Assembly: GCF_025698545.1 (NCBI RefSeq)
Contig: NC_068571.1
Coordinates: 39,961,733-40,025,732, forward strand
Direction: 5' to 3'
Length of the DNA stretch: 64,000 bases
Source of the DNA: Gossypium raimondii
Taxonomy: Eukaryota > Streptophyta > Magnoliopsida > Malvales > Malvaceae
Part shown: positions 4,308-64,000 of the stretch, one piece after another
Position numbering within the stretch: position 1 is the stretch's first letter
Layout: every line of letters starts with the position of its first letter
Made by a program: the position numbers and the translations under genes
The notes under the pieces: model-generated
Seen by the model: the letters and a program-made list of their open reading frames with translations, nothing else
Databases searched by the model: none
Told to the model about the DNA's origin: nothing

Positions 4308-4776
4308 TGTTGACACCATTTTTTTTGATAAAATGGGGTCGACTTGGATTTTGAAAACAAAAACGAAAACGAAAACGGGAGTCGCCACCAATCTTTTTTC
4401 GATGAGGTGTGATCGAGTCACCTCGAAGAGTGGTTGTTTTTCATAAACGATTTAATTTTTATTAAAACGATTTTGGTCTACAAAATTCAGAAAAATAGGT
4501 TCAGGAGTCGGTTGCGCACGAGGAAGGATTAGCACCCTCGATACGCCCAAAATTGGTACCTAATTGATTAGGTAGTGTCTTAGTGTCGAAAATTGAAAAC
4601 TTTGAAGAGTTTTAAAAATACGATCCTTAAAAGAAACTCTGATAACATGAACTGAAATATAAGATTCTCTTATTCCGAAGGAATATCACATCCAGCACGT
4701 TAGGACACGATACTTTAAACCATCGAAACCAAGATCACCTTATAGTTTAACGAAACCATACTTTGAAGTTTTAAGA

Positions 4777-5097
4777 GGATATTTGGCTATTTAGTCGAAC
4801 AAGAAATCGAAACCCAGCACGTTAGGACACGTTTTCTCGAATTTCCAAACGCAAATTATTGCCTTATTTAGAAAATCTTAAAAGGATATTTGGCTATTTG
4901 GTCGAACGAGAAATCGAAACTCAGCACGTTAAGGCACGTTTTCTCGAATTTCCAAACGCAAAATATTGCCTTATTTAGAAAATCTTAAAAGGATATTTGG
5001 CTATTTGGTCGAACGAGAAACCGAAACCCAGCACGTTAGGGCACATTTTCTCGAATTTCCAAACGCGAAATATTGCCTTATTTATAAAATCTTTTCT
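4777..5097 (+). repeat. Three tandem copies of a 107-bp unit inside the solo LTR
   Basis: The word GGATATTTGGCTATTT recurs at 4777, 4884 and 4991, exactly 107 bp apart. Each unit continues through CAGCACGTTA and TCTCGAATTTCCAAACGC. A more diverged version of the unit lies in the related LTR near 56350-56640. Confidence 0.9.
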
Positions 5098-42359: not shown

Positions 42360-45300
42360 TCAATCATAATATAATTCCCCCCGGAAAGCTTTCTTCACCT
42401 GTCATCGATGTACCAAAGGAGGTTAACATATTCATCAGTGGTAGCAATACAAGTGCTTTTTAAGGTACATAAATGCTAAGTTTCCACGACTCTTCATTTT
42501 CCAACTATTCATATCTGATGCATATCTGAACATGATTATAAGGATATGCTCTAAATACATGAAAAATTTTAGACGAAGTTTAACATGTTCACGCTAGACA
42601 CGTACCGGTATCCAACACTAGTACTTGAATCCAAGCGGCATAGTATAAATGAAATCTGTACTAATTACAGGTGAAATTTTGGCAAAGGTCATATTGAATT
42701 CTAGATGAATGAAGTTCTATTTTTTAAAAAATTCAGTAAGGTACCAAGCATCTCTAATGATTTAGACATAATATTGCACTATTAAGGTTGAGCCAATAAA
42801 CATGGAACTTTTCCAAATCCAGATGTTATAGTGTGTTTAACCTAAAGGAGGAGATGGAACTGGAAATCTTATTGAAAATAGGGAAAAGGAGATTGTTAAG
42901 CACATGCATACATATATTTTATGAACAGATGAAAAAAAAAAAAAGACAAGATCAAATCTAAACTGCAGATCTTACTTGCTCAAGAGTCAAGAACATAACC
43001 ACGTTCCAAGATCCCAGCCGAGTAAAATTAGGAACAAATCCCTTATAAAAGGCAAGGAATCCCTGTAATGCATCAATTATCAAAACTTACTACTCATTAT
43101 AACAATGCTTTTCTAGTCAAAAGTTGGTTTCCTTCAAATTAACTGGCACAAGTTGACTCTTTGAGAAAGGGTTTGTAATAAACAAGTAATGAACTGCAAA
43201 AGCCAGCTTTTTTCGGAAGCTTTAAGTTAACATAAAAGATGGAAGAAAAACTAATGACAGAGGTAAACTTTCTAGCTCAGAAACATGCAAAAATCTATAG
43301 TTCAGGTACCAATTGGCACTCCGGTAGTATTAACCACCAAGAACGCAGAGTGTAAGAGAAGAAGACATTTATAGATTCTGGAGAAATCTAAATAAAACAA
43401 TCAGAAAACCAACATACCTCATTCCTCAAAGTTCTAATGAAACAATCAAGAGTGTTTTTGTAGCCAGAGTCTCCCATCATTCTTGATTTTACCTGGAACA
43501 TAACAAGCAGATCCATCCATCCAACATAAGTTTTGTCAAATTGGTTTATATGGTATAGAGATCCACAATCTTCTTTAAGCAAAGCCTTGTGAGTTCCTGT
43601 AATGCTTAGAAGACAGACTGAAATTGAAGTATCAACATGAAAAAGGATTTGCAATTTAAACTGTATTGAGCGTGACCATGGCACATCATTTTCTTTAACA
43701 ACTCCAACTCAGAGACCTTTGCACTTCAGCCCAAAATGGCACAATGGTTCCGTGTATCCACTGTTGCTTATCTCTTATATAAGGGTTAACCAATCAAAAC
43801 AATCTTTCAGAAAATGCCAGTTCTGAAGCAAAACATTGACAGATGTAATTCTAGTTTTGAACCAAACACTAAAATAAGAGCTCAAAGTGATAGGGAAAAA
43901 TTTTATGATAGAAACAACAAATAATAATAAATTACCAATCTTATAATTCTTCACAAGTATTGTAGATGATGAAGACAAGATCAAATGCCTACCACATCAA
44001 TTGGAGAACCAATACAGACTGCAAAGAAACCTGCACCAAGACCTGCTAGAAGATGTGTTAGGACATTGTCTGAGAATCCGGGAATCTTCAAAATTGTCTG
44101 CATGATATAAAGATATTAGATGTTAGAACATCGTTGTAACAACCATACTAGCAAGCAGCATAATACCAACTTTATCAAAATGACTAACTTTGTTGACTTA
44201 AAATTGAAATTTTACCTGTTTCACTTGATCATAACTGGCTAGTTCAGCAGCATTTACAATGGCATTTCGTGCAATGTTGGGACCAAGCCCAGTCCACAGT
44301 GCTGCTAGTCCTTCCTGATTATTGAGAACTTTATATGATAAGGAAATTAATTTCTCAAAAAAAGGAAAAGAATAGTAACATTCTAAGAAAACTGACTTCT
44401 CTAACTATGGTGTAGTATGCATCCAAAGTCCCATAATAACGCCTGGCAATCCCGGCTGGAAATTTTCCTTCAGCTTGCAGCCGAACTTTGACAAGATCAG
44501 TTGGATTAGCGACTGTAATAGCTAGAGCACCTGGTTGATGTAAGAGGCTTTTATATGAGTTTATAGCAAAAGAAAATATCTTTTTTTATAACAAATAAGA
44601 AAGATTAGTTATAAGCGTGGCACCTATAAATGGACAAAACGAAGCATAAAGCTAAAAATGGAAGATGTACAAAGTTTAGTGTGGCAAAATAGTTACCACT
44701 GACTCACCAGTCAATAGAGCTGCTATAATTTTTTGGTACAACGGAATATCACCAACATAATCAGCACCAACTAATAGCGTTTTGACCTGTCAATTCATTT
44801 TACACATAAATATCAGACTATTACCGAAAACAATCAGAAACAAGCCAATTTGAGCCACATCATAGCCTTACAGGTTCATATAACCCGATCCTTAGACCTC
44901 CATAAATGCATTGGCGATGTAAACCAGCAACTATTCCTTTCCAAAGTGCTGATAATCTTTCTTCCTTAGCAATGGTAGCCATAGTACCCAACAAGCCCCT
45001 ATATTTTGGTAAATTAACTTCATCACCAACTGCTTTCTTTTGGAGCTGGAGTCTGACTTTGGCAGTGTCCAAAGGAATGGTACAGAACTGCAAAACAATA
45101 AGCGCAATGTTTAAGTAAAACAAGACAATTAAGCATAAAAGGAAACAAAAGGAAGTATGGGAAACGCCTCTCTAAATACCGAGCGAACCAGCACATTGAA
45201 CAATAGTAGTTCAATTTATACTCAAAGCATTTATGATGCTACACTCTCAATTATATGACAACAAGTATTCCATATAAAAAGTTCTGATACTACCAAGGAA

Positions 45301-45882
45301 TGCTTCCTGTGACATTGATAAATCAATGACTGTTGGGAAAAAAAAGGGTATCAAAAGCTGATTTACTATATATATCCATGGATAAATCAGCACACAAATT
45401 CCTACCAATTGTATCCTCAACCTATGGAGATTTAAAATTGAATTAGTAACAATTAAGCAAACATTCCTTACAAAATGAGCAAGCATCTAAAATCTTGCTA
45501 AGCTAGTACCACGTGATCTCCTAATTCCCACCAATCTTGATGAATTATCATAAGCCCAAAACTTTTAAATTTCATTCAAAACTCTAACATTGTATAAGAA
45601 ATGATAAAATATCACATACCCAGAAACAAGTAGCTAAAGCTAAAGGGGTTAAAAAGCAGATACATGCATATACCTACAGACTAAAAGAAAAGAAAAAGTC
45701 AACCTTCCTCCCACCAAAATAGCAATCAAGATGCAAAGAATCACAAATAGCAAACAAAATAAAAAGAAAAGAAAGAAGCACATGTAAAATTAATACCCAG
45801 GGATCATGAATACCTCAGCAAAACAAGCAGCAAAAGCACTACAAAGAAAAGTTTCAGCGAAAGAAAACTTAAGATCTGCCAT
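42360..45882 (-). CDS. UCP2: Mitochondrial uncoupling protein, UCP2 type, 300 aa
   Basis: Nine exons on the minus strand: 45882-45814, 45087-44872, 44786-44708, 44530-44397, 44314-44216, 44097-43993, 43492-43418, 43062-42976, 42398-42360. All join in frame (903 bp with stop). It belongs to the mitochondrial inner-membrane carrier family, which exchanges anions and, in this subgroup, mediates fatty-acid-dependent proton leak. Three carrier repeats each hold the signature P-x-(D/E)-x-x-(K/R): PLDTAK, PTDLVK and PIDVVK. Other diagnostic blocks are [54 protein letters not shown], and [13 protein letters not shown] in the purine-nucleotide-binding region. The N-terminus [12 protein letters not shown] and tail [12 protein letters not shown] resemble Arabidopsis UCP2 more than UCP1. 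Usual length is about 305. Donors are GT and acceptors AG throughout; the exon-4 donor GTCAGT is weaker. Open frames in the introns are shadows. No defect seen. Confidence 0.96.
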
Positions 45883-46229
45883 TAGGAACTGAAGATGAGA
45901 AATGGGTAGCTGAGATCTGGGCCAATAAAAAAAGGGGGAAAAAAAGAAGTTGGTTGAGTAACAGTGAAAGAAGAAAAGAAAATGAAAAGCAAGATATATA
46001 TATGTATGAAACAGGGTAATTAAAAAATGGCTTCATTCGCAACCATTGAAGGTTGTGCAACTGGGTTTTTCACTCCCTTTCATCTTCTTTCCTGTTATTT
46101 TCAGTATTTTTTTTGGTGCTAAAACATTAACAAAATCGTTTTATTTCACATGTATAAGGTTGTTGGGTTCGTCTCTGTCGTATAATATCTTATCATCATT
46201 GTTTTTGTTTCTTTTATGCATTATTATAT
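45883..46229 (-). promoter_or_regulatory. Upstream region of the uncoupling-protein gene
   Basis: Minus-strand leader with C/T-rich sequence just upstream of the ATG and ATATATATAT (about 45992-46001) about 110 bp upstream as a candidate TATA box. Nothing else recognised. Confidence 0.35.
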
Positions 46230-46237
46230 ATTTCTAG

Positions 46238-47466
46238 GAGGGGAGAGCATTCGATCGAATCGAATCGAAAATTTTCGAGTTAATCGAGTTTTCGAATCTC
46301 ATTTTATCATCCTAACTTTATTTGAAGTTTTCTCGAATCGAGTCGAGTGAGATGGAATTCGAATTGAATCGAATCGAATCGAATATATTTGTTCGAGTTA
46401 AATTTTAAAAAATAATTTTAGGTCCTTGTAACCATTGTCACCCATCGTAATAAAATTTTTCCACCTTAATCAAAATTTTTATTAACTTTCATCACTTCAT
46501 AATTTATTTATTAATTTTTTATATCTTGGTTAGCTTCTTTGCTTGCTTAGTTGTTTCAATTATCTTGATTCTTGTCACTATGTATTTTAGAATTAAAAAT
46601 ATATTAAATGTAAAAATATGATTTTTAATAAAAGTTATTTTAAAAATAAAATGTGAAATTGATACCAATATAAAATTTTAACACGAATATTTTATGGCAT
46701 AATTAATAATTCAATTTTAATATAAATATTCAATATGACTGAACAATTCAATAATATAAATAATATAAAATGTGAAATTTAATTTAATAATATAAATAGT
46801 AGATATAAATAAAATTATTACTATTTATGTTTAGTGATTTTTATTTGGATATTTTGATTTTTATTTGGGAGTAAAGGGTGAGAAGTAAAAGTTTAGGGAA
46901 AAATAAAAGTTTTGGGGAATAAAAGTTTGAGGAAAGTAAATAGGGGAATAAAATTTTGAAGGAAAATATTAAAAAAATTGGAGGGGGGAGGGTTTGGGAT
47001 AGATGGGAGGTGAGATGGGAAGAGAATAAAAGTTTTAGGGGAAAAGTGGGAGGGAGTAAAAATTTTGGGGGAAAATAAAAGGTTTTAATGGTTTTTGGGA
47101 GTAAAATTTTGAGAAAAAATAAATGGGAAAGTAAAATTTTGGTGGGAAATGGATTTTGGGTAGATTGGGGGGTTGGGAGGGGAGAGGAGTAAAAGTTTTC
47201 GGGAGAAAGTGGGAAGGAGTAAAAGTTTTGAGGAAAAAGTAAAAAGGTTTGGGAGTTTGGGGTAAAAATGTAAAATATTATAGTTTGATATTCGAATTAT
47301 TCGAATTATTCGAGTTATTCGAATTCAAAAATTTAACTCGATTCGAACTCGAAATTCGAAAAAAAATTCGAGTTGATTCGAATAACTCAAACAACTCGAT
47401 TCGTTTAACTCGAAATTCGAATTTTTTTCGATTTTTTCGAGTCGAATCGAGTTTTGCTCACTCCTA
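46238..47466. mobile_element. hAT-like MITE (1.2 kb) with TCGAATCGA ends and a C-depleted core
   Basis: The direct repeat ATTTCTAG flanks it (46230-46237 and 47467-47474). The left end GAGGGGAGAGCATTCGATCG and the right end CGAGTTTTGCTCACTCCTA are imperfect inverted repeats, and both arms are full of CGAATCGA/TTCGAGT words. The centre, 46822-47292, is almost free of C on the plus strand. No transposase. Confidence 0.72.
46822..47292 (+). repeat. Strand-asymmetric, C-free, G-rich core
   Basis: Across 471 bases I count a single C (47200). The sequence is built from imperfect repeats of 'ggga(g)taaaagttttgggg(a)aaa' with runs of four to six G, for example GGAGGGGGGAGGG at about 46980. Confidence 0.9.
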
Positions 47467-47474
47467 ATTTCTAG

Positions 47475-50030
47475 TTTTAAATGAAACTATTATTTTGTAA
47501 GCATTTTAATCATATTATATGTTGCCCAAAATTATAAATTTTGTTTTATAACGGCCTTCATTGTTAGTTATCCAAACAATTTACTGTTAAATAAAAATGG
47601 TTAATTCCACCGCGAAAAGATCTTGTACTTAGTTCATATATGCCGTTTGTTGACAACAAGTCTAAATTTGAAAACTTTTACAATCCGTATTTACATTATT
47701 TGATTTATTCTCACTCGTTCAATTTTAATTTATTCTTTTATTGTCATTTAATTTTCTAAATTTACAAAACAAAAATCAATTTATCCTTCATTAATTTTTC
47801 TATCTCTTTTAATTCTTTAATCTACGTCTTTTATCAAATCACTCAAAATGAATAGAAAATTTTAACCTTTTCCTCAGTTAAAAGTACTTTTGCTGCTATT
47901 TACATTTTTCACCTCAGTTTATTTTCTCCAAAAGACTCGTTAGAATACCCATTTCTTTTTTATTTTTTCTTTCAAAGTTCTTTTCTCTTGTTCTCTTCTC
48001 TTTTGTTCCTCTTTTAATTCCTCCACCGGTGAGTTTTTTCCTTCTTCTTCTCTTCAAGTTGTTCATTTTTCTTCTCTTTTAGTTTAATTATTTTTATTGT
48101 TTAAATTTAATAAATAATTAATATTAAATACTTAGAAATATTTAAAATTAATATTATATATTAAAATATTAACAATAAGTTATAATAAATTATTTTTTAT
48201 ATTCTTATTAAAATATCATAATATTAACTAATTTAAACATTATTTAAATATATATTTGTTACTTTATAATATCATATCTAAAATGAACATTTTATTTCTC
48301 AAAAGTATTTTTTTACAGTAATACTAAACAATTAAATTTTAAACAAAACTTCCTAAAAACACTTTTTAAAAATAATACTAAACTAGCACTTAGTGTGGTA
48401 AACCCAGTCTTCCCAGCATATTTTCAAGCTGCTCGATGAAATAAACTGATCCCCATTCAACTCAAACACCGTCGCGAACGACCAATTCCTTCTCCTCTTT
48501 CTCGTCACCACCATATGCCGATGGGTTTGAGATGGATTCATAAAAGAACATGAATTGATAGGACTTATTATGCTGTATATAAAATTAATAAAAACATGCA
48601 GCAACATCCCCGCCGAAATCAATTTAACACTTCATCCAAAAGGAATGTTAGGATTTTGTGTCATTGTTGTATTTGTGAAAATCAAGGTGATCGAGAATCT
48701 ATCGAGTTTTAGTACGCAAACACAGAGAAAGCAAGCATTCGGTACGAAAATGTGGGCATAAAACAATCCTTGCTTAAACTAAAATGAAAATAATGGGACA
48801 GCCACCAACTCCGTCGATCACTTGTTCCAATGCTGCAAATACATTGGGACTAACATCACCGCTACTTGTTTGCAAGTTTAATGGCTATGGCTATAGGGTA
48901 AAATTAGAGTTTAGCCTTCCAAAATCATAAATTTTCTCAAAAGAATTCCTAGAATCAGCATCCAAGAGACGCATTGGATCCTTTAGGCTCTAAACCACCT
49001 TGAAGTTTCGCCATGGAATCTGATTTATGCGGCCATGCCATCCTCTCCCGCACATTTCTTTAATGCTGTGGACAAACTAATTGAGATTTGCTACTTCTCC
49101 TTCATCCTTTACCTTATATCCTGGTTACTCATCTCCAATGCCATCTTAAATTCATGATAGTTTGAAGATCATAATAACATGTTTCCGTTTCACCAAATTT
49201 CAAACAACCTTCTCATTACATCATTGCAAGTTGATGGAATTTCAGTATCAGACCAATTTATAAAATCCCACATGTCAAACCAAATTATTCATCATGAAAT
49301 CAGTCATAATTATTTTAAATTAATTAATAATTGAATAATACAAATTATATTATCACTAATTGATTTTATCTCTAGTTAATTAAATTAATATGATATAAAT
49401 AATAAATAAATAAAGTTCAAATATTTGTGGATTACTTAAATAAAGAGTAAATTCCACAAGGAGTCCTGAACATCTCCCCTAAAAATAAGTCACCCTTAAA
49501 CCATTCAACACATTAAGAAAATATCTGAAAAAAGATTTTGTATATTCAATCTCTTTCCAAAATCTTACTCAATTTTTTGAAGAAATTAAAGAAATCTTAA
49601 AAAGCAACATATCATTTTTGAAGAAAGCCAATTTTCAATCTTTCATCAACTAAAGAATGGAGGTCCAAACCCATTGTAAGAGCAAGTTACCAAGACACTT
49701 AAAGCAAACCACATCTTTCCAAGATCAAGTTTATACGACCTTTAGATCGAAACTCTATTAAAAAGAAAAATCAAAAGATTTTTCTTTGTAATAAGAACAT
49801 ATAGAGTTAGAAGTTTATAAATAAATTTTGTCATCAAATTTTCCAAGTTAATTTTCTGAATTGATATTTGAGTGTACAGATTTATGGCACATTTAGTGGG
49901 CTTATCTCTTCTCTCCAAAAGATCAAAGTTCAAAATTTCAATGACTTCCAAGAATATCATCGTAACAAACCAACTCTCAAGTTTGCTCAAGTTAATCCTT
50001 CAATCCATTTGACTTAATTGTTAAACATTA
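47475..50030. other. Spacer with a possible gene fragment
   Basis: A minus-strand 52-codon stretch starting at 48538 (MNPSQTHRHMVVTRKRRRNW) and running to about 48383 looks coding but is not recognised and has no visible continuation. The rest is AT-rich. From about 49240 the sequence may already belong to the retroelement carrying the gag remnant that follows. Confidence 0.35.
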
Positions 50031-50455
50031 ATGTTCATGCTCATCCTTACGAAACCAAGTTGAAGAGGAAAACTCTTTTAGAGTTATTTGATCAGACTTC
50101 TCCAATGCTTAGTGACAATCCATTTTGTAGAGCTTTTTCACCAAATCATAACTTAGAAGAAGTTTCTGCTTATTGATCAAGTTTATCTTGTTGATTATGA
50201 TTCAAGGAAAAAGATAGTCCATCAAGTGATAACTCCCTCCCAACAACTCCCCCAAAATTAAATTATGGAGTGATGAATGTCATGAAAATTGGTGCCTCAT
50301 CCTTGGAAGAACAAATGGCGTCTCTAGCATAAACTACGAAGAGTCTTGTTGTAAGTCTAAGGAGAAAGATGACCAAATTGCTTTTATAATGGGAAGGATT
50401 ATCAATCTCATAGAGAAGAAATCAAAAAATGAAGAAGTCTAATATGAAAACTTAC
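50031..50455 (+). pseudogene. Gypsy gag remnant, left part
   Basis: Broken frame reading SLEEQMASLA, then TTKSLVVSL, then, after a shift, DDQIAFIMGRIINLIEKK and a stop. The pattern resembles the N-terminal gag segment of plant Gypsy elements. Together with 58790-58990 it forms one interrupted sequence: deleting the solo LTR and one CTTAC copy gives YENLQDEAGENSNAQAAKDP across the junction. Not functional. Confidence 0.55.
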
Positions 50456-50612
50456 TGTAACACTCCTAAAACCACCATGTCATATTAGTGAAGTGTTATA
50501 TCAGGGATATGCATGGTGGACCTCTCGCGTAAACGAAATGAGATATATCAGTGATAGTAGGGAAGGTTTATGGATATTGGAGAAAATTGAAATAAGCTCT
50601 ATATTGTTAAGA

Positions 50613-50811
50613 GAAAGGATTGTATGAAACTGTGATTTCACGTCATTCGTATCCCTTTCCAATAAAAGAATGACAAATTAGATTTTTCCTCCTAATTTGA
50701 ATTTTTTCAGGAGAAAAAGCTGAAAATCAGGAGGAAAAATCTGATTTATCGTTCTCCTATTGGAAAGGGATATGGATGCCATGGAATCAGAGTTTCATAT
50801 AATCCCTTTTC
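50613..50811. repeat. 199-bp near-perfect hairpin
   Basis: The left arm (about 50613-50700) and right arm (about 50722-50811) are reverse complements at most positions. For example, TATCCCTTTCCAATA on the left pairs with TATTGGAAAGGGATA on the right, and AGATTTTTCCTCCTAATTT pairs with AAATCAGGAGGAAAAATCT. It could be a foldback MITE inside LTR A or a small-RNA hairpin precursor. Confidence 0.8.
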
Positions 50812-51256
50812 ATATTGTGAAATATTAATCTGGGGTATAGACTAAATAGTAAATTAGTGAAAAGTGAAGGGGTCAAATAATAAAAATTCAAAAGTTGAGG
50901 GGTTAAATTAAAAATTAGAAAAATTAAGGGACAAATTATAATTTACCAAAAGCAGAAAAGACTAAATTGTAAATATTAAAAATTTTCAGGAGCAAAATGA
51001 TCATTTTGCAAGTGAGATAATTTTTGGTAAAATTACCAAAATGTCGTTGGACATGTGAATTGAATTTGAGCTATTGGATTTGCTTAATGATGAAGGATTT
51101 AATATGGACCATTGGATGAAAGATAAATATATTGATTATAATTATTAATTCAGAAAGTGTTGGCTAAATATGAGCCCTTGAATTTTTCCATACATCACAC
51201 TTCCAAGCAAAGGGGAGGAAAATGAAACTTTCATTTTTGTTCAATTTGGTTCTTAG

Positions 51257-54200
51257 TGTAACAGCCCGATTTTGGGTCTAGTCGGAACAGTGGTTTTGGG
51301 ACCACAAATCCGACGAGGAAAAATGTAATGGCCTGAATTTTCAGAGGTGTCGGAACGGTGATTCGATATCACTAAATTCGACAAATGGGTAGAAAATATT
51401 ATTAATTTAGTGAGTATAAGTTAAATGTGAAGTTAGGAAAATTTTTGAAATAGTGAATAGTACACTAGAAATAAATATTAAAATAATTAGAATCGAAAAT
51501 GAGGTATCAAGACCTCGGGGATTTTAAACCGAGCCATAAATATTTTTTATAAATATTTATGTAGTGTTAAAAAGTTAGTATTAAAGTTTCGTTAAGAAAT
51601 TTTAAAGTTCCAATAATTAATTGAACAAAAAGGACTAAATTGTAACAAATGCAAAATTATGGGAAATGATTAAATAGATTAAATGATAAAAGGAAGAGGG
51701 CTTAAAAGGAAATAGACCCAAGGTCTATTGGGGCTGGACGGCAAAGGCATGAAATCAGCAACAAAGTAAGGAGAATTAAGGGCAAAATTGGAATATTGCA
51801 AAATTTACTTAATAAAGTTAGGACCAAAGTGGAATTATCTAGATTTCTCTTTATTTTTCTGCATTCTCATCAGAAAAAACACCATATAAGGGTTTCCTTA
51901 AGCTGATTCTTCCTATTTTTACTACAAGTAAGTTAATTCTTGATTATTTCTTGAAAATTTTGTGTTTTTGTGACTTTTACAACTAGGCCCACTTATTGTA
52001 TTCATTAGTTTTTGATTCTATGAAAGAAGTTGAAAGTTGCTATGAATACATGCTGGAAGTATATGATGATTTAGCATGGAATTAGAGCTTTAAATTGTTC
52101 ATATGCTGATTTTATTGAAAGAATTGAATAGAAAGTGAATGTTTGGGACCTAATAGTAAAAGAGTTTGAAGATAGAGTTATATGTGGAAATCCTGAATTT
52201 CAATAGTTGTGAAGCAACTTATAATGTCTAGGTAAAGTATTAATTGAGAAAATTAAATTAATTTAGGGGTTAATTGATAAAGGACCGAATTGTATAAACT
52301 GTGAAATTTGGGGCAAAAAGGAAATTAACATTTTGCACTAAAGCAGTTTTGGACAGCAGCAGTAGTATAACTTTGAAAAATCATCAAAAATTTTTGGAAT
52401 TGAATTAGAGGGTGAATGAAATATGAAATTAAAGATCATTGAGTCTAGTTTCTCATAGAAGAAACGGTGTAAGCAATGGAATTGTAAATCATGAGATATA
52501 ATAAATTTTGTGAGACAATGTCAGAATGATTTCGGGTTCCCCTGTTCTGACTTTGGAAAATCATCAAAAATTGAAGAAAAATAATTATAAGTTATAATTT
52601 ATATTATTATAATCCTTAATTAGTCTATTTTCAAATGAAATAAACAGAAACATCATCCAAATTCTGTACAATTAGATAATTCATTTTTAGTGAAGAGTGG
52701 TCGGAACTGTCAGATAGCGAAACAGGGGAAACTTTAAAGAATAAACTGTACTATTTGGCTGAACCAAAAATTCTGAAAATTTATGGTAAGAAGGCATGTG
52801 AGTCTAGTTTCAGGGAAAATTAACGGATCTTAATTTTGATCTTAATTTTGAGCTCTGTAGCTCCAGATAAAAATAATTTAGTGACTCTGACTCGGATAAA
52901 TAGCTTTGAATATACATGTGAGTGAATAGTGAAATTATAGCTAGTGTTGTTTAAGTGTGTTATACACATTAAGGATGTGGAATTGAGAGGAGGGGGAGGA
53001 AAAATTAGGAAATATATGAATGATTTGTGTATAATTGGTCATATGCTTAATTATAATTGATAAACGATGAAATAGAAATGATGCATATATTTGTGCAGTA
53101 TTGGTCATGGTTTAAGCTCATGTGGGAAAATAAAGTTTATAGTACGTGTGTATTGTATTTTTGGTATATGATTTGGCATGAAGTAATGTCGTGATTGGGT
53201 ATTGAATTAACACATGTTGGAAAGTTTGATATATGAATAAATATTGTGATCATGAAAGGGGTGGTAAGGTTTAAATTATGAAATCTTTAGTGAAATGGTT
53301 TATTATGTGATTATTTCCAAAAAGAATTATGTTTCAATGTACTAGTTTGCGACTATGGTTGAATGATATGTTTATATCTTGTGTGATGTGCATAGGAAAC
53401 GAGTGTGGAAAGGTAATGAAATAGTAAGTTCATATGGCTGAAAATTAATGATTAAATGTTAATTTCATGAATTATATAATGTATGATGAGATATATTTAT
53501 TGTTGAAATGAGAATAAAATAAAAATGCGAAAACTGAATAAATGATTAAATTGAGCAGAACGCCAGATTTAAGTATTTCTGATCAGTAACAAAGTGATAA
53601 GTGGTAGCTTTAGCTACACTTATCTGATCAAGTGACAAAGTGATAAGTGCTAGCTTTAGCTACACTTATCTGATCAAGTGACAAAGTGATAAGTGCTAGC
53701 TTTAGCTACACTTATCTGATCAAGTGACAAAGTTCTGATCAGGGACGAGTGATAAGTGATCATACGTAAGACCATAGTTATACTATGGCAAAGTGGAAGT
53801 GAAGTACTCAATTTTCTGTAACCGTTCCCTAATTTGATTAAGGATGGTAAGTGACAAATGGGCCTAAAAGAATTAAAGTAAATGGTTAAGTGGTAGTGTA
53901 TTTATACCAGGATGATGTTGTTATTTTAAAGTGACATTTTCATTGCAAAATTGAGAATTTCATAAATGTGTTATTGAATGGTATAATCGATAAACGTTGA
54001 GTTAAATGGTAAATATGTATTAGTGTTGAACTTAATGTCATTGAGTTGTATGTGAATTAAATGGAAATTGCTAGTGATATGATTTAAATTGTGAGCATGA
54101 GAAATTGCAAATTGAATGGAATGGAAATGAAGCATTGAATTGCATGAGTATGTATCGGGTCTCGTAGGCCCTAATTATTATGATTATAATATTTTGAGGA

Positions 54201-54354
54201 TATACTGTGAAAAATTATAGAAGCATGTTAATTATTTTGAAAGTTTTAATTTAGATGAAATTTTATAACTCGGTTAAATACGTTTACAAGTGTATGTGTT
54301 TTAGTAATGCCTCGTACCTTATTCCGGTGTTGGATACGGGTAAGGGGTGTTACA
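51257..54354 (+). mobile_element. Solo LTR 'B' (3098 bp), target duplication CTTAG
   Basis: It starts TGTAACAGCCCG and ends GGGGTGTTACA. CTTAG is at 51252-51256 and 54355-54359. A TATA-like ATATAAGGG lies at about 51884. A short tandem array with palindromic units is at 53581-53745. No primer site or coding domain. It is related to LTR A and to the LTR end at 1-243 by its terminus. Confidence 0.92.
53581..53745 (+). repeat. 46-bp tandem repeats, each with a perfect palindrome
   Basis: Units begin at 53581, 53626, 53672 and 53718 (the last is partial). Each full unit contains GATAAGTG, then TAGCT, TT, AGCTA and CACTTATC: two 13-nt arms, complementary except for one unpaired base (G or C) between the first two blocks. 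Confidence 0.92.
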
Positions 54355-55329
54355 CTTAGTCACCTAATTCCATCTTTTCAACCCAAAATTTTAGGAGTTT
54401 CCATAGCAACCAAAGAGGAAAAGTGATGTTGAGACCTTAGTGTCAACTAAGTCCAAAGAGGCGGCAAAAAGGCCACGAGCTTGAGAGAGTTTTCCTATTA
54501 AAATTATCAAGGGTTAAATTGTAATTAAAAATATTAAATATATCCCTAGAGAAGAAAATATTGAAGTCGATCATATTGCTAAGATGACATTTGGTGAAGG
54601 GGAAGGTTTTCAATTATTTGAAACTTCTCTTTTTGAGTCTCTCTAGTCTTTTATAGAGCTTTTCTCTTCTTTAACAAAAAAAAAATTAAAAGAAAGGTAA
54701 CTTTGTAAATATTTCGAGGCGGGGTGTGGTGAATTTATCCTGAACCCGATCCAACTAGTTTTTAAAATTAACCCAACCTAACTCGAATTAAACCCGATTT
54801 TAGAAAGAAAAAAAAAACTTGACCCTATGGAGCTAGATCGGATTGGAGTTTGTCTGTTTCATGTTTTTTTTCATCCCTACTCATGACATGATTAGTGATA
54901 CTCATGTGCTAATGTTTCCAGCACTTCAGTGCTCATGATTTCTTAGTACTTTTATGCTTGTGTTATTCCGCATATCCTTTATTGTTCTTCATTATTTACT
55001 AAGAGTTATGTGAAGAAAATGCTAAGCAAAATAAAAGAGTAAGTGAAGATGATTATTTAAGATATATTGTATTAACTAAAACTTGATATATTTATAAAGG
55101 TATAAACAAGATAAGTGAAATTTTAAATGAAATTTATATTGAATAGTTAGGATAGAATAGAATTAATGTGTGTACTTACTAAGCTTTTATGAAGCTTCTT
55201 TTAAACTCGTAGTGTGCAAGAAGTAATTGTGTGTGAAGAAGTTGAGGGGGCATATTGAATCAAATTTCATCAAATGAAGGTTTGTGAATTATGTATTTGA
55301 ATTATGGACATTAGTATGGCATGTACTTA

Positions 55330-55764
55330 TGTTGGGGATCGATCCGATTGAGCAACTAACAAGTAAAAAATAGCAGAAGAAATTGAGACACAAATTTAAC
55401 GTTGAAAAACCCCTCCAAAGAAGATAAAAAACTACAGGCAAAGATAATTTTACTATAATGGCAAAAGAACGAAGAGTACAAAAGATGCAGATAAAACTAA
55501 ACCCCGAAACCTGGAAACAAAGAACCCTCAACACATAAACACAAAATTCTTCAAAAGTGTTATGTGTTCTAATCTCTAATGGGTGTATTTTTTAAGGTTG
55601 TAGAACCTATTTGTAGACTAAATTCGTAGGTCAAATAAGTTATGTTAAAAATACTAAATATATTATACTAATAAATACTAAATCTTCTAAAAATAAAATA
55701 TATTTTGTTTAACTTGACTTGCAAGTAATCTCTTGTTTGACTGAAATATGAGTCATACTCAACA
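55330..55764 (-). mobile_element. Solo LTR 'D' (435 bp), Copia-like, target duplication ACTTA
   Basis: On the plus strand it runs from TGTTGGGGATCGATCC to ATACTCAACA, with ACTTA at 55325-55329 and 55765-55769. Read on the minus strand it starts TGTTGAGTATGACTCATATT and ends GATCGATCCCCAACA, a layout common in Copia LTRs, so minus is the likely transcribed strand. The 81-codon open frame inside is a shadow. Confidence 0.85.
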
Positions 55765-57654
55765 ACTTAAGTGTTCAATTGGTATGAAAGTGAAAGTTAA
55801 TTAATACTTTAATTAACTAAGAGTTGAGTTTATGAGGAAATGTTTTGAGGGCTTTGTGATAAGTTAGGAAATGAACATGTGATTTTTTATGATATTTTGG
55901 TGCATTTTAAGGTTTGAATATGATTAACAATGATTGGGATTGAATGAAGAATGTCGAAACCATTTTTTGAAAACAAAAATTAGTTATCGACTTTAAAAAC
56001 AAAAATTGGAGTCGCCACTGATATTTTATTGAGGTGTGATCAGCTCACCTTAAAAATGATTTTGGTCTGTGAAATTTGAGAAAGCAAGTTCGGGAGTCAG
56101 TTACGCACGAGGAAGGATTAGCACCCTCGTAACGCCCAAAATTGGTACCGAATTGATTGTTTAATGTCTAGGTGTCGAAAATTTGAAAAGATTTTAAAAG
56201 AAAACTTTTTAACTTGAATGAATTAAAATAATAAAACATTCTTATTTCAAAGAATTAAAACGTCACAACCAGTGAGTTAGGGCGCAACATTTTTTAATCT
56301 TCAAAATTAAGTTTGTCTCTTAATTTTAAAAAATCATGCATTTAAATTTGAAAAGGATATTCGGTTATTTGGGTCAAATGAAAAAATCAAAACCCAGTAA
56401 GTTAGGGTTCAATTTCTCGAAATTTCAAAACACCGAATATTACCTTTATTTTGAAAATCCTTAATTCGAGGTAGCAAAATTGTCAGATCCAGTGAGTTAG
56501 GGTCCAACATTTTGAAATCCCGAAGAACTTTATATAGAAATTGTATGGTTTTATTGTAAAATAAATACTTGGCTATCTAAATTCATCGTAAAGAATTGAA
56601 GCCCAGTAAATTAGGGTACAATCCTTCTCAAGAATCGTGAACGTTTGAAAACTTACGGAATAAAATGTCTTTGATGCTTTAATGAAACATAATCTTTAAA
56701 ACAAATGTAGTGCGATTGAATGGTAATGTACAACACAAAAGGATAATTCAAAAATAAAATATACCCTAATGAATAATGAATAATCAACAAATAAATATAA
56801 ACTAACATAGCAACTATAATCTCAATCCTACACTTTGCAAATATCAATATCAAGTTATAATCAATAAATCATGCATGCAAAGGTTTTAGAGTAAGCAGTA
56901 TATAAGTTTGTGATAAATTGAAAACAAAATTAGAAATAAGCATCTCATAAACTATAGTATTTAAATAAATTTTTGAAGCAAATATTATACAAGAAAAAAA
57001 CATATAAAATAATATACGTATATTAATTTAGGTAAATAGTGCATGTGAAGAAGGAAAAAAAACAAATCGATAATAATAATGATAATATACATACATAAAA
57101 ATAATAAAAAATGAACTAAACAAAATATATAATATAGGGTTTTAAAAATATATATATATATTCAATCTACTTTTAGAATATGTTAATAATAAGTTAAAAA
57201 TAACCAATATATTAAACGTTAAAATAACATTGATAACAAATTTTAAAAATATATTAAGCTTAAATATGAAATAATACTAAATATGAAATTAAACATATTT
57301 AAAAATAATAATAAATATTAAAATAAAATAAGGGAAAAATATTAAATAAGTAAGGATTAAATTAAATTAAAAACAGAATTTAAAGAAAGGAAAAAAAATG
57401 AAAATAAAATAGATCCAATGGGGGCAAAATGTAATGCGCGAATAACTTGGGGGACCAAGTAGGAAATAATTCCCATCCCTCCAAAACGCAACGTACAATC
57501 TGGGCCAGAATGAAACAAAAACAAAATGCGTGGCCAAATTTAAAGGAATAAAAGAAAATCTGATTTGAACATATTACAAAAGAGGAGGACCAATTGTGAA
57601 AATTTCCCTTTTATCAGGGACCGGATCGGGTCAATGCGCGGGTCTATGGAAACT

Positions 57655-57669
57655 AAACGGCGTCGTTTT
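57655..57669 (+). promoter_or_regulatory. Palindromic promoter element in LTR C
   Basis: AAACGGCGTCGTTTT followed within a few bases by TTATATTTT, matching the arrangement in the other copy at 6274-6340. Confidence 0.5.
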
Positions 57670-57838
57670 GCTTATATTTTTAAAAGCAATATTTTCTTAA
57701 AAAACATTTCCATTTCATTTCTTTTTTTTTTTTAAAACAAAAGCAGAAAAAAGGGGGTGCTTCTCTGCTAGGGTTTCGACCCTAGCCCCTTCATGCCGCC
57801 GCCGCCGTGGAGCCATTGCACATGGTGCTCGAAACCAG

Positions 57839-58099
57839 GTAAGCGCCCTTTTCTTTCTTTATTATTTTCTTTAAAAAAATATGAAACAAAAATAGAAACA
57901 GTGAGAAGAAATCTCGAAGAGAAGAAAAACGAATCACCTTCCAAAATCCTTTTTGTAATTTCAATGGTTTTTTATACAATATTCCCCCCACAATCGGTTT
58001 ACAATCGGCCTTTTATACCGAAAAATAATAATAAATAAATAAATAAATAGATAATCCTATATCTTGCTTGTTGTGCTGTGGTTCGTGGTTTGTTTGCAG
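57839..58099 (+). other. Intron-like segment in LTR C
   Basis: Donor CCAG|GTAAGC and acceptor TTTGCAG|GAAG bound a T/A-rich 261-bp stretch between two GC-rich blocks; it corresponds to 6538-7044 in the other copy. Confidence 0.45.
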
Positions 58100-58789
58100 G
58101 AAGAACGTGCGTGGTGCGCGGCGTGCACGGAGGCTGCTGAACGTGGGCGAAGTTGCGGCAGTTAGGGTGTACGGCGATTGAAATTGTTGCTGCTAGGGTT
58201 CTAATTTTTTGCTTCTATTTTGTGTTTTCGGCTACTGGGCTGAATTAGATTTTGGTTAGGGTTTGTTATTTGTATATTGGGTTTGGGTAGTTTAGGTTAA
58301 AAGGTTTGGGTATTTGGATTTTTATCATTGGTTTTTGGTTTTAATTTTTATTTATGCGGGCCCGGGCAAAAATTGGGCCTTACAAAGAACATTTAGGTAA
58401 GTTTTTGGATGTGTTTAAGCTTGATTTTGGCTCTCCAAAATCCAAACACTGATACTTGAAGTACTTCTATCTATACAACATTGAAAGAATGCAAAAGTGA
58501 ATAGTATTAAGCAGAGGTATCAGTACCTTAGGAAGTTATGTCAATACATCTGCCTTGTTTTACCCTAATTTGATTGTTTTCTCATCGAAAGGGCCCAAAA
58601 CGACCTTTAATTAAAGCCAGATCATAAAGTAAGCTTAGAAATTATTGAAAAAGTCTTAAAAGACCTTAAATAAGTTTAAAAGATAAGTGGAACTAGGATG
58701 ACATGTTTGGTATTTGAGTGACGTGTTCGGCTTGAAATGTAGCATTCTTTGCTTGAGTTTTGGTTTGGACTCAAGTAAGGGGTGTTACA

Positions 58790-58995
58790 CTTACAGGATG
58801 AGGCTGGTGAAAATTCCAATGCACAAGCTGCTAAGGATCCTCAACCAAATATTAAGTTATCACTATTGATTAACTCAAAGAGCTTATTAAATAACTTGTT
58901 AAAGGTCAAGTTGATTGTGTAATTCAACCTTTATACACTTACACAAAGTCATACTATTCCAGGATTGATAAGCTTTTGGAATGTTCACGGTTGTC
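58790..58995 (+). pseudogene. Gypsy gag remnant, right part
   Basis: Continues the frame broken at 50455: QDEAGENSNAQAAKDPQPN, then LLKVKLIV, a stop and LYTLTQSHTIPGL, resembling the 'SYTYTKPYTARID' region of Gypsy gag proteins. Stops and shifts make it non-functional. Confidence 0.55.
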
Positions 58996-59119
58996 AAAAC
59001 CAACAAAAGTAAATTTCCTACTCAATAATACAAATATTTGTATAAATATAAATATGGTCGAACCCATAGAAATCGATGATAATTTTATTCCTTTAATGAA
59101 AACAAGTAAAATAAAATTA

Positions 59120-59762
59120 GGATAAACTCACTAATGGTAACCTAACTATGGTCAAAATTCTTTTTTATCACCCAATTATAAAAAAAATAAAATTAAATTG
59201 GTCATCCAACTTCTTAGGTTTATTTTTTGTCCTTTTCCATTAATTGCGATTACGGCGACGGAAGGATGATGAAGCAATTTTAAAATTGTTATAATAACAT
59301 ATTTAGCCCTCAACAATTACACATTCTATCAATTTGGTAATGGTTATAAAGAAATTAACCCCAACATTTATAAATTATCTCAATTTGGTCCTAATTCTAA
59401 TAAAATTTAAAACATAAAAATACAATTATATCTAAAAATATTATTCTTTAAATACTATATATAATTTAAAATATTTATGTAAATATTTAAAATTATTAAA
59501 TAAAATCAACAATTTCTTATGGCTCTCTCTCTTCCCCCACCACTTCTTTAATATTAAACGTTTTTTCTTGTTGAGGGTTAAATATGTTATTATACCAATT
59601 TTAAAACTAACACATCATCCTTCCGTTGGAGTCTTAACAATAATTAATGGAAAAGGAAAAAAAATGAATCCAATAAGTCGGGTGACTAATTTAAAACTTT
59701 TTATAGTTGAGTGAAAAAAAAAATTCTGACCACAGTTGAGTGACTTCTAGTGTAGTTTACCC
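59120..59762. mobile_element. Mutator-type MITE (about 640 bp)
   Basis: The left end GGATAAACTCACTA pairs with the right end TAGTGTAGTTTACCC. Pairing continues for about 150 bp: the left GGTCATCCAACTTCTTAGGTTT matches the complement of the right AAGTCGGGTGACTAAT area, and TTTTCCATTAATTG matches CAATAATTAATGGAAAA. The flanks ATAAAATTA and ATAAATATA agree at 7 of 9 positions. Non-coding. Confidence 0.68.
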
Positions 59763-61170
59763 ATAAATATAAGAAGGGTGTCTTAATATTAAAGATTAAA
59801 GTTAAAATTAAAACTAGGAAATAGAAATTAAAAAAATAAATTTATGAAAATCAATATATTGAAAGCCTAGTCAAAGGTAAAACCCCAGTTTTGATTTATA
59901 GGTTTAATCATTGATGCAAAGGTGAATTTTAATATTCTATGATAAATTGGTTATAGTTATCGATGAACGCTTTGGCGATTAATCTCTTATTATCTTTTTG
60001 ATAACCAAGGCAAACATCATTAATTATTTTCTTTATTGATAAATAACCTTATAAAGAGCACCTAGAATTTAAGTTATCAATAGCATATTAAGAATGATGG
60101 ACACCCAATTTTACCCAACAAATACACAAACACGATTTATTTAGACTAGATCATATATACACAAAACATGTATTGCATAAATAGCTTATACCCAATCATG
60201 CTATTCATCACAAATATGAAATTGACAAAGCAAATATTGTAAGTCATCGAATCTGAGCTCTATGTTCAACAAACTTGAATATTTTTAATTAAAATAAAAA
60301 AAATATATAAATCCCAAAGAATGAGGAAAATATTAAGGACAAATTAGATCCATAAACTTGAAGAATCAAAGCTTCAAAAATATTTTAGTCACTAATTTAA
60401 ACATTAAAATTTATCAATAACCAACATATGCAACATTCTTATTTATTAAGAATATTTTAAACTATATAAAATGGTATTTAACATATGGTTGAGATTTACT
60501 TGCACAAGTGAAGAAATTATACCAAACCAATTATTTTTAAAAGTAATAATAAACTTTATTAGAAAAATATTGACATATTTATAAGATGATTGTTATTTTT
60601 AATTATAATTGTTTTTCATAAATTAATTTCTCTTTCATATTACAATTCATAAAATTATTTTGGTTATCTTTATAATAAATTTTTATTGTTTTTGTTGATT
60701 ATAAGTGTTTTTATAAATTAATTTATTTGTTAATACAGATTTTTATAATAAAATATTAACATATTTATTTACTATAATTATTTTAATGTAATATTTTTAA
60801 ATTTAATAATAAAATATATATTTTATATATTACTATCGATTATAAATACTACTAGTATTGTTAATTTTTATATTAAGATTAAGATTAAGATTAAATTTAG
60901 ATTTATTTTATTTTTTAAAATAATTATATTTATAAACACTATTAACTCGTGTATATATATATATATATAACAAAATAAAAGAAAAGGAGATTGGTGTATT
61001 AAAAACGAGATAAGGCATGTACATAATAAAAATTTAATATATTGATTATAATAATAACATGTTAAATGTTTAAAATTGAAGAAACTAAATTTATTAAAAA
61101 GGAAGAAGCAAATCCTATAATAAGTATTGCATGCTTTTAGGAGAAGTAATCTTATTGAAAAAAAATAGGA
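59763..61170. other. Very AT-rich spacer with simple repeats
   Basis: ATTAAG is repeated at about 60874-60893 and a TA run lies at about 60951-60968. Open frames here are AT-rich artefacts. No gene. Confidence 0.5.
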
Positions 61171-61179
61171 TTTAAAGTA

Positions 61180-61650
61180 AATCACTTAATTTTGAAAAGT
61201 TTTAAAATAGTTATTGAATTATTCAAAATTTTTTATTCAAGTTATTAAACTGTTAAAATCGTTGTTATATGGTCTTCTCTGTTTGCACTACTTGTACTAA
61301 TCGAAAACTCTCTTTCTACTTCTCTTTTACAGTTTAGTTTTTTTTTATGAAACAATTTTGAATATTACAAATCTGTAAACCAAAATCCAAATAGTTTTTT
61401 TTATTCAATCTTCGATACTGGTCGTTAGATTGACTTGAATTTAAGATATGTTCTACTTGTTGATGGGTATTGGTCCATTATATCTGTCATCGAATTGTTG
61501 CTTAGACCTCACTAACTAAATTAAAAAAAAAATTAATATCCCAATAAATTAAATAACAACTTTTAATATTTTAATAATTTAAATAAAAACTTTCAAATAA
61601 TTTAATAATTATTTTATAACTTTTTAAAATTGAGTTACCAATATATAAAT
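61180..61650. mobile_element. Inverted-repeat MITE in the mS34-like gene's upstream region
   Basis: The left arm (about 61180-61265) and right arm (about 61560-61650) are complementary: TTAATTTTGAAAAGTTTTAAAA on the left pairs with TTTATAACTTTTTAAAATTGAG on the right, and TTCAAAATTTTTTATTCAAG pairs with TTTAAATAAAAACTTTCAAA. It ends about 230 bp before the start codon. Ends are approximate. Confidence 0.6.
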
Positions 61651-61740
61651 TTACTACTAGCTTAGTTGCCGGATGAAATTCACCCTTCAAAAAAGAAATC
61701 TTACATACCAATAAGCGAATGCCTCTTCTAACAGTAATAA

Positions 61741-61754
61741 AAACGACACCGTTT
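61741..61754 (+). promoter_or_regulatory. AAACGACACCGTTT element upstream of the mS34-like gene
   Basis: A near-palindrome about 130 bp before the ATG that resembles the AAACGGCGTCGTTTT element in the two related LTRs. No TATA box is obvious nearby. Role inferred. Confidence 0.35.
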
Positions 61755-61880
61755 GAGAATGCTCTTCTCCAACTCATTTTTTTGTACTTGAGAAAACACG
61801 CCTCATCTCCTTTCTTTCCCTTCCCCAGTCGCCCTTTACTAATATAGAGTAAAGAACAGAAACCAAAGCAAAACCCAAAA

Positions 61881-63774
61881 ATGGCGACGGCACTCGCAAA
61901 CAGAGCTGCCCAAAATCAAACTACTGGGCTATTGAGACTCTCCTTCAACTTCTTCAGAAACCTCTCAACTGCGACTTCGACAGAAAGCCCTGGCGCCTCC
62001 TCTACAGCTTCCAAAAAGCCCAAGAGAAAAAAGAAGAAGAACCTCTTCGAGGTAGCTCAGTTCTTACCCAACTGGGGGCTTGGTTACCACATGGCCAAAA
62101 CTCATTGGACTGATGTTTCATATCAGATCACCAAGATCAATCTTTATAAGGTCCTCTCTTTCTCACTCAATTACTCCTCCAAGGAAAAAAACAAGAAAGA
62201 AATTTCGGGTTGGTTTTCTAAAAGTGATTCATTTATATCTAAAAGGAATGATTTTTGAACCATTGGTGTTTTGTTTTTACTGAGATATGTGAAGAGCTGA
62301 TGGGGTTAAATGGTTCTATCCGGTGTTCTGAGCACAATGTATTGGTTTTTTTAATAATAAAGTTGTTGACAAAAAAAAAACTATGGGTTTAGTTGATTAT
62401 GCAATTCTTACTATTGTTGGTCTGTTCTTAGGGTTTATTTGGTTTGTGCTTGTTTGCAGGATGGAAGGCATGGCAAGGCATGGGGAGTGGTCCACAAAGA
62501 CGGTTAGTAACTCATATAAATAGTTTATTTTGCTACATGGAGTAAGATATTGGTTTGAATTTTAGGACTTAAGCTTTTGGTATTGTTATGCTCATTATTG
62601 GTGTCACTTAATGTTGGTGATATTTTCCATTTCGATTAAAAAGATGCTTGGTATTTTATTGCCTATCTCAGTGCTCAGTGCATCCTTAACTATTGTTGAA
62701 TAAGTTTATAATTTTCTCTTCGAGTCTCACTCCTGCTGTATTTTGATATTTACTTTTTTGGTAGTTTATGAATTTTAGTCCGTCTCACTTCTGATCCATG
62801 GCTGGAGAAACACTGATTTTGCACTGAATTAGGAGCAGCATAAATGAATACTGATTAGCTTGGGGAAGAGAGAGGCAGAACAGTGAGCTGAATAATGTTG
62901 AACATGTCGAAAAATGACTTAAGAGTGTTGCAGAAAGCAACAAAAAATTCTGTAGGTTGGGAGGTGCATCTGTGTACTTAGAAGACACTAATTCATTAAG
63001 AAAACAAAAAAGTTACTGAAACTTAAACATTGTGCCAAATATTGGCTAAGATCATTGACTGAAAGACAAGTGGAGTGGCAAAGGACATGTGTTCAAGTCT
63101 TTAGTTGACTCCAGTCTCGGGTTCGCTATTTGTACAACCCCCACCCCCCACCCCCTATCCCTTATCAATATATATATAATGGGCTAAGATCAGAAGAGGT
63201 CAATTATATGGTTCATTGCTGCTTTAAAGATCAAGATGATTGCTACAGCTAGGCAATCTTAATGTCAATGTAGAAGGTAGGAAATGGTATAGTTTGTGTA
63301 GAAGAGAGTTCAAAGGAGACTAGATTCTGATAGATGCTTCTTGTTTATGGTTAAAAACCACTGATGTTATTTGTCGAAATGGGTGTAACGAGATTGAATG
63401 GGCTATCATACAGTGTGTTGCTATACTTGATGACCATTTGCAATGTCCTAGACCCATGTTAGAAAAATGGTAATTCCTGGACTGATTTAACTACTGCGAT
63501 GATAACTCTGGAAGAATAGATGTTATTTCTGCATTTGACGGTTTTTGCTATCTGATTAGATTTCTCTATCTGCAATTAACTGTTAAATGTGGTTTAGTTG
63601 ATATTATTGATGCCTAATGCAGGTGCTGCAGCTGCAGATGCTCCCAAAAAAATAAGTGGAGTTCACAAACGCTGTTGGAGATACATTCCGCATCTGTCCA
63701 AACCTAGAGATACCGCACCAACCTTGATGAAACCAACAGAAAATGCCCCAAAGGCTGAATCTGAACTAGCTTGA
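61881..63774 (+). CDS. Mitochondrial ribosomal small-subunit protein mS34-like, 154 aa
   Basis: Three exons: 61881-62150, 62460-62502, 63623-63774 (465 bp with stop, frame closed). The N-terminus (MATALANRAAQ, then LRLSFNFFRNLSTATS) is basic, without acidic residues, and rich in S/T/A, a typical mitochondrial targeting peptide of about 35-45 residues. A lysine-rich KKPKRKKKKN stretch follows, then the conserved core NLFEVAQFLPNWGLGYHMAK, HWTDVSYQITKINLYK, DGRHGKAWGVVHKDG and KKISGVHKRCWRYIP. I associate this core with plant proteins annotated as '28S ribosomal S34' (mS34), a structural subunit of the mitoribosome. The first intron's donor is GTCCTC, weak, but the exon join is supported by the core motif. 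Reading through instead gives a 125-residue frame ending at 62258. No symbol is given because the plant name is not settled. Confidence 0.85.
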
Positions 63775-64000
63775 TGCATTGCCGTAAATTATAGATGCTG
63801 GTAACATGATTTTGCATTGTTGGCTCATCCTTTGCAGTCAGTAGGCATGTTGTTATTTTCAGATTTGGTAGGGCTTTACGGTTCATTTCTCAATCCACTT
63901 GATCTTTCACGCACCAACAACTTTGTGCTTTAAACCTACTCAACTTTTACTGGCACAAAGATAAATCCATAGTCAGACCTAAAAGTTTTGTGAACGAGTT
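63775..64000. other. 3' flank of the mS34-like gene
   Basis: Presumed 3' untranslated region and downstream DNA; nothing else recognised. Confidence 0.4.

Follow-up and report, generated by a model that had tools for sequence, protein, structure and literature searches.

A solo long terminal repeat holding three further solo long terminal repeats in Gossypium raimondii is consistent with ordinary nested insertion

Introduction

Nesting of long terminal repeat (LTR) retrotransposons in plants has been described on a large scale: the portion of PMC7251063 available to us gives 4,126 nested/original pairs, and it cites earlier work in which the ratio of solo to complete elements correlates with LTR length. 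For cotton, the accessible part of PMC12557855 reports two to ten times as many solo LTRs as intact copies for Athila, more solo than intact copies for Ogre and, in G. herbaceum, twice as many solo LTRs as complete elements for Tekay; in the D subgenomes, intact Tekay elements concentrate pericentromerically and the solo LTRs do not. Here, we analyzed a 64,000-nucleotide stretch of Gossypium raimondii DNA (the window, C7:39961733-40025732 of a 750.8-Mb assembly with 281 contigs) in which a solo LTR, called A, lies within a gag-type remnant and itself holds three further solo LTRs, called B, D and C. Copies of all families were sought genome-wide in this assembly.

The nest resembles the described systems in several respects. 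As reported for the cotton Tekay/Del chromovirus solo LTRs in the part of PMC12557855 at hand, the LTRs of the nest are single, carry 5-bp duplications and lie away from intact elements. The likeness to Tekay/Del extends to the Del-type start (TGTAACACCC is the most common U3 att in the excerpt of PMC4029996 available) and to the primer binding site (PBS) TGGTATCAGAGC. As in the nested plant LTR retrotransposons of PMC7251063, as far as that source was accessible, younger elements lie in older ones and relative age can be taken from the nesting; unlike in those pairs, each of the four elements has already become solo, which makes dating by LTR pairs impossible here. Two further differences concern the family of B. 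Unlike the cotton Tekay solo LTRs, with two per complete element in G. herbaceum in the accessible part of PMC12557855, it has about 13 lone ends per PBS-bearing copy (an upper estimate), and unlike the cotton Tekay elements of that source, the two cores read measure 1.75-1.84 kb and hold no sense frame of 70 codons. A literature search on solo LTRs within solo LTRs found none, and such a search is a weak guide to what is in print.

Results

Architecture of the nest

The nest is real but ordinary. A, B, C and D are each a single LTR that keeps both termini and lacks an internal region. TG...CA-type ends adjoin all four pairs of matching 5-mers, these ends are common to the LTRs of the respective families, and no PBS or core was noticed beside any of the four in the window sequence. 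The features of the nest are as follows (window coordinates, strand, description).

49599..50455, plus strand: gag-type remnant, left part, with stops in the six-frame translation; aligns to locus L055
50451..50455, no strand: first copy of the A target duplication, CTTAC, matching the second exactly
50456..58789, plus strand: A, solo LTR of a Del/Tekay-type family, TGTAACACTCC...GGGGTGTTACA; supported by family copies, with both ends found in the LTR of L039
50608..50811, no strand: palindromic (foldback) element, an inverted repeat with flanks ATATTGT at 50601-50607 and 50812-50818
51252..51256, no strand: first copy of the B target duplication, CTTAG, matching the second exactly
51257..54354, plus strand: B, solo LTR of a Tekay-like family with LTRs of about 3.1 kb; supported by full-length relatives and L061
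54355..54359, no strand: second copy of the B target duplication, CTTAG, matching the first exactly
55325..55329, no strand: first copy of the D target duplication, ACTTA, matching the second exactly
55330..55764, minus strand: D, 435-bp solo LTR of a copia-type family; supported by relatives L044 and L058
55765..55769, no strand: second copy of the D target duplication, ACTTA, matching the first exactly
55947..55951, no strand: first copy of the C target duplication, AAGAA, matching the second exactly
55952..58384, probably minus strand: C, 2,433-bp solo LTR of a large-element family, presumably Ogre/Tat-like; supported by LTR pairs among relatives
58385..58389, no strand: second copy of the C target duplication, AAGAA, matching the first exactly
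58790..58794, no strand: second copy of the A target duplication, CTTAC, matching the first exactly
58795..58969, plus strand: gag-type remnant, right part; aligns to L055 directly after the left part

The last five bases of the left gag part are the first CTTAC copy. B, D and C are non-overlapping neighbors within A, so that the order is gag-type remnant, then A, then B, D and C: three levels, where an earlier note on this sequence had counted a four-level stack. After removal of B, D, C, the palindrome and their duplications, A has a net length of 2,142 bp. Four lone LTRs and one foldback element are packed within 8.3 kb.

The palindrome is a fifth insert in A, overlooked by the earlier note. 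It measures 204 bp, consists of two 100-base arms and is flanked on each side by the same seven bases; other copies occur in the genome on both strands, and it is absent from the relatives of A.

Target duplications and empty sites

The four 5-mer pairs match exactly. Two random 5-mers from positions 49001-60000 agree with p = 0.0026 (200,000 draws), and because the LTR ends are fixed by homology, four such matches are not due to chance. Flanks of 120 bases were joined with a single copy of the target and compared with paralogous loci. The junction was spanned at the A site in all three loci (L054-L056, copies of the gag-type element), at the B site in 6/7 loci (5/6 distinct copies), at the D site in 4/4 and at the C site in 3/4. 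For the palindrome, A relatives spanned the junction in six of seven loci, or five of six distinct copies; the distinct counts arise at these two sites because L032 and L040 overlap and represent one copy. Since paralogous empty sites exist for each LTR, the 5-mers are real target duplications. Chance agreement, which the earlier note had named as a possible flaw, is thus ruled out by the empty sites together with the p value, and its account of four insertions, independent of each other and reduced to one LTR apiece, is supported by the duplications, the family ends and the empty sites.

The motif CTTA, which makes up 0.5% of the 4-mers in the window, is common to the flanks of A and B. A preference of the B family for CTTA-type targets was considered and rejected, as its 22 judgeable relatives have diverse duplications, and the shared motif is therefore taken as a coincidence.

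The outermost level was traced through L055. Positions 49599-50450 align to this locus at 67% and positions 58805-58969 at 78%, contiguously with the left part and in the same order; other places in the genome match the right flank at 71-79% (all 37 candidates scored). L055 has an open frame at the region of the remnant, which we take to be the start of a Ty3/gypsy gag; a Pfam search gave no match to two gag-like frames of L055. By homology, A interrupts a gag-type remnant. The placement of B, D and C in A, and of A in gag-like sequence, had been given by the earlier note and agrees almost to the base with the L055 homology and the empty sites. The remnant is also interrupted by a repeat from 58989-59110 onward (TGTCAAAACC...): 22 of 38 other places matching the query for the right gag flank match only this repeat, and 18 begin at query position 193-208.

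A is one LTR

The relatives of the left part of A (50456-51256) match positions 1-152 and 357-731 as adjacent pieces at 72-81% identity (best 40 of 778 candidates scored, which favors close relatives). The middle part was searched with the best 40 of 44 candidates scored, again favoring close relatives. For the right part (58385-58789) all 31 candidates were scored, and the longest matches have 76-82% identity. L039 contains neither B, C, D nor the palindrome; its left and right parts stand on one strand in the same order as in A, and the A-type ends bound a single LTR of 2,779 bp, after which comes TTTGTGATATCTGA, apparently a decayed PBS. This PBS-like stretch also bears on the membership of A in the Del/Tekay group. 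Order and strand agree in L040, which also lacks B, C and D and has no matching flanking duplication; C3:42052979-42054649 contains both sides in this order, as judged by coordinates, and the right-hand pieces are contiguous in L041 and L042. A repeat of about 155 bp (54533-54687) within A, possibly a short retroelement, has copies at many places and ends in a run of A.

The family of B consists largely of lone LTRs

With the best 40 of 13,292 candidates scored (which favors close relatives), four relatives match B over its full length at 93-96%. Besides the window copy, 29 relatives were fetched; 22 could be judged, and in the other seven (L006, L013, L014, L015, L018, L021 and L025) no right end was found within the fetched stretch. 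Each of the 22 is a lone LTR flanked by a 5-bp duplication, whose copies match exactly in 18 cases and with one mismatch in four. The terminal branch of B (0.022) is typical of its family, in whose tree 29 of 31 terminal branches lie between 0.018 and 0.053; those of L022 and L061 are 0.082.

Full Del/Tekay elements have the ends TGTAACA...TGTTACA followed by TGGTATCAGAGC, and A and B carry such ends. We presume that TGGTATCAGAGC is the PBS of the initiator tRNA-Met. The combination of GGGTGTTACA and, within 10 bases, TGGTATCAGAGC occurs at 1,556 junctions genome-wide (reversed control, 0), and in L049 such a junction is preceded by 44 of the last 45 bases of B. L061 has a PBS, a core of 1,842 bp, a stretch resembling a polypurine tract (PPT), AAAGGGGGGAGAGT, and a 3,166-bp LTR about 90% like B; the core of L062 measures 1,750 bp. 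Neither core holds a sense frame of at least 70 codons, minus-strand frames of 70-84 codons are present, and chromovirus pol domains were not found in these two. B is for this reason called Tekay-like and, as far as the cores were read, non-autonomous. L061 and L062 resemble LARD-like (large retrotransposon derivative) non-autonomous elements in having a PBS and a PPT without recognizable pol. LARDs are defined by a large core; unlike them, the B family has long LTRs and a short core, a combination expected to favor recombination between the LTRs.

The 23-base end of B occurs 359 times genome-wide, 24 times with TGGTAT 4-6 bases further on. Assuming two ends per PBS-bearing copy, about 311 B-type ends are lone, or about 13 per PBS-bearing copy. 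This ratio of 13 to 1, like that of 14 to 1 for D, is an upper estimate: truncated copies are included among the lone ones, and so are those whose PBS has changed. The B family, in which lone and PBS-bearing copies are countable within a single genome, could be used to examine how the rate of solo-LTR formation depends on LTR length and core length. In the region of L062, three B-type ends (G000:C1:17376372, 17381212 and 17386055) follow each other on one strand at a spacing of 4.84 kb, two of them followed by a PBS, which looks like a tandem LTR-core-LTR-core-LTR array.

The families of D and C

For D, 39 relatives with 84-89% identity were among the matches listed (best 40 of 3,043 candidates scored, which favors close relatives). 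L058 is a 2.4-kb element with two LTRs of 442-444 bp that are 93.7% alike, and its 1.5-kb core holds Retrotran_gag_2 (copia gag; E 2.2e-21) and Pol_BBD; the three frames searched gave no match to reverse transcriptase or integrase. D is copia-type, as shown by the copia gag between the LTRs of this relative. L058 resembles gag-only non-autonomous elements in keeping the copia gag domain and Pol_BBD. In L044, the LTR is preceded, at the 5' end of D, by GCTCTGGTACCA, the reverse of a PBS with one mismatch, which places D on the minus strand. A lone D-type LTR, flanked by TTCAC at either end, is present at L045. D-type ends were found 340 times genome-wide with a 13-mer (reversed-pattern control, 11), 21 of them beside a PBS, with a PBS pattern that would miss L044 itself owing to the mismatch.

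Among the relatives listed for C (best 40 of 7,010 candidates scored, which favors close relatives), 14 of 39 form seven same-strand pairs spaced 8.8-21.6 kb apart. The pair L059/L060 has 2.4-kb LTRs that are 91.8% alike, with the first 24 bases as in C and a similar end, and the LTR of L060 is preceded by a stretch that resembles a tRNA 3' end and looks like a reverse PBS. C probably lies on the minus strand. We take its family to be Ogre/Tat, a name that fits the size and the apparent reverse PBS. Elsewhere in the window, positions 4464-5093 are related to the C LTR (pieces of 77-83%) and hold three copies of a 107-bp tandem unit.

Discussion

Age order and proposed history

The nesting of B, C and D in A supports A as the oldest of the four, and to this extent the chronology read from the sequence by the earlier note stands; the nesting gives no order among B, C and D. 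Kimura two-parameter distances to the fetched relatives are 0.21 for the right part of A (L041), 0.12 for the first 0.9 kb of C (L047), 0.094 for D (L044) and 0.035 for B (L002). These values, which depend on which relatives were found, agree with A as the oldest and suggest B as the youngest, and it is in this sense that we infer an order among B, C and D.

We propose that an old gag-type remnant, with a mitochondrial-carrier gene on one side and a gene-like frame on the other, was entered by a Del/Tekay-type element, which recombination between its LTRs would have reduced to A. Four further elements then entered A at separate points: a foldback element, the Tekay-like parent of B, which had no long frames, the copia-type parent of D (minus strand) and the large Ogre/Tat-like parent of C (probably minus strand). 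The last three would each have shed one LTR and the interior through recombination between their own LTRs. To this explanation of the nest, by ordinary nested insertion and solo-LTR formation, we assign a probability of about 0.93. Four LTRs present as single copies, the target duplications that flank them, the families to which their ends belong and the empty sites in paralogous copies were observed directly; the loss of the interiors by recombination within each element is the probable route. Further points in its favor are the B-type end beside a PBS, the B-family copy with a PBS and a PPT-like stretch, and the LTR pairs in the families of C and D. Several observations weigh against it. Positions 54442-54906 of A have little or no match in the relatives of A, and L039 and L040 are longer there, from which it follows that A has in addition undergone deletions or taken up other small inserts. 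For the right half of C the match is weak, at 62% over a 213-column alignment in L060, and there is none at the threshold used in L059. One copy each at the B, C and palindrome sites fails to span the junction, and every empty site is paralogous, within the same genome, and none orthologous.

The poor match at 54442-54906, and the fact that few of the relatives listed match both sides, could also mean that the left and right parts of A belong to two different elements and that the CTTAC pair is fortuitous, a concern already voiced in the earlier note. We consider this hardly credible: B, C and D are absent from L039 and L040, where both parts follow each other in order on one strand, C3:42052979-42054649 has both sides as well, the ends in L039 bound one LTR of 2,779 bp, and all three loci tested span the empty gag site. 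A two-family chimera is thus ruled out by L039, L040 and the empty site. Nor does it seem at all probable that the lone LTRs of the B family were inserted as single-LTR DNA instead of arising by recombination after insertion. That all 22 judgeable relatives are lone with target duplications, and that the terminal branches are with two exceptions short and alike, would fit such a route, but copies with a PBS, a core and a PPT-like stretch exist, and frequent recombination is already predicted by the long LTRs and the short core. We see a slim chance that the B family is a non-autonomous Tekay-like lineage that forms solo LTRs almost purely, through its long LTRs and short core, and spreads LTR-only copies, possibly partly inserted as single LTRs.

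The dense packing of lone LTRs and a foldback element had led the earlier note to propose a local bias towards both insertion and recombinational removal. Such a doubly prone spot is improbable, and the bias is unsupported: relatives of B elsewhere are lone in 22/22 judgeable cases of the 29 fetched, a PBS lies beside only 24/359 B-type and 21/340 D-type ends, and in cotton, according to the accessible sections of PMC12557855, solo LTRs outnumber intact Athila and Ogre elements and, for Tekay in G. herbaceum, are twice as numerous as complete ones. Lone LTRs appear to be the usual state in the genome for at least two of the families in the nest. Where families are mostly solo, no local cause has to be invoked for a nest of this kind, and a special property of the spot is not required here. 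The nest is a clear illustration, each step having its paralogous empty sites, that solo LTRs from predominantly solo families can cluster without a local hotspot.

Neighboring features

The nest is flanked on one side by frames with Mito_carr domains (44358-45171, minus strand; E 1.1e-13 and 1.6e-6), the two of which are predicted exons of a mitochondrial carrier gene, and on the other by a gene-like frame at 61881 (61881-62258) with a weak match to MRP-S34 (E 0.0036, under the curated cut-off). An Rfam search of positions 44000-64000 gave no match at gathering score. To the right of the gag-type remnant lies an inverted repeat resembling a miniature inverted-repeat transposable element (59117-59316 and 59568-59766), with arms of about 200 bp that are 77% alike.

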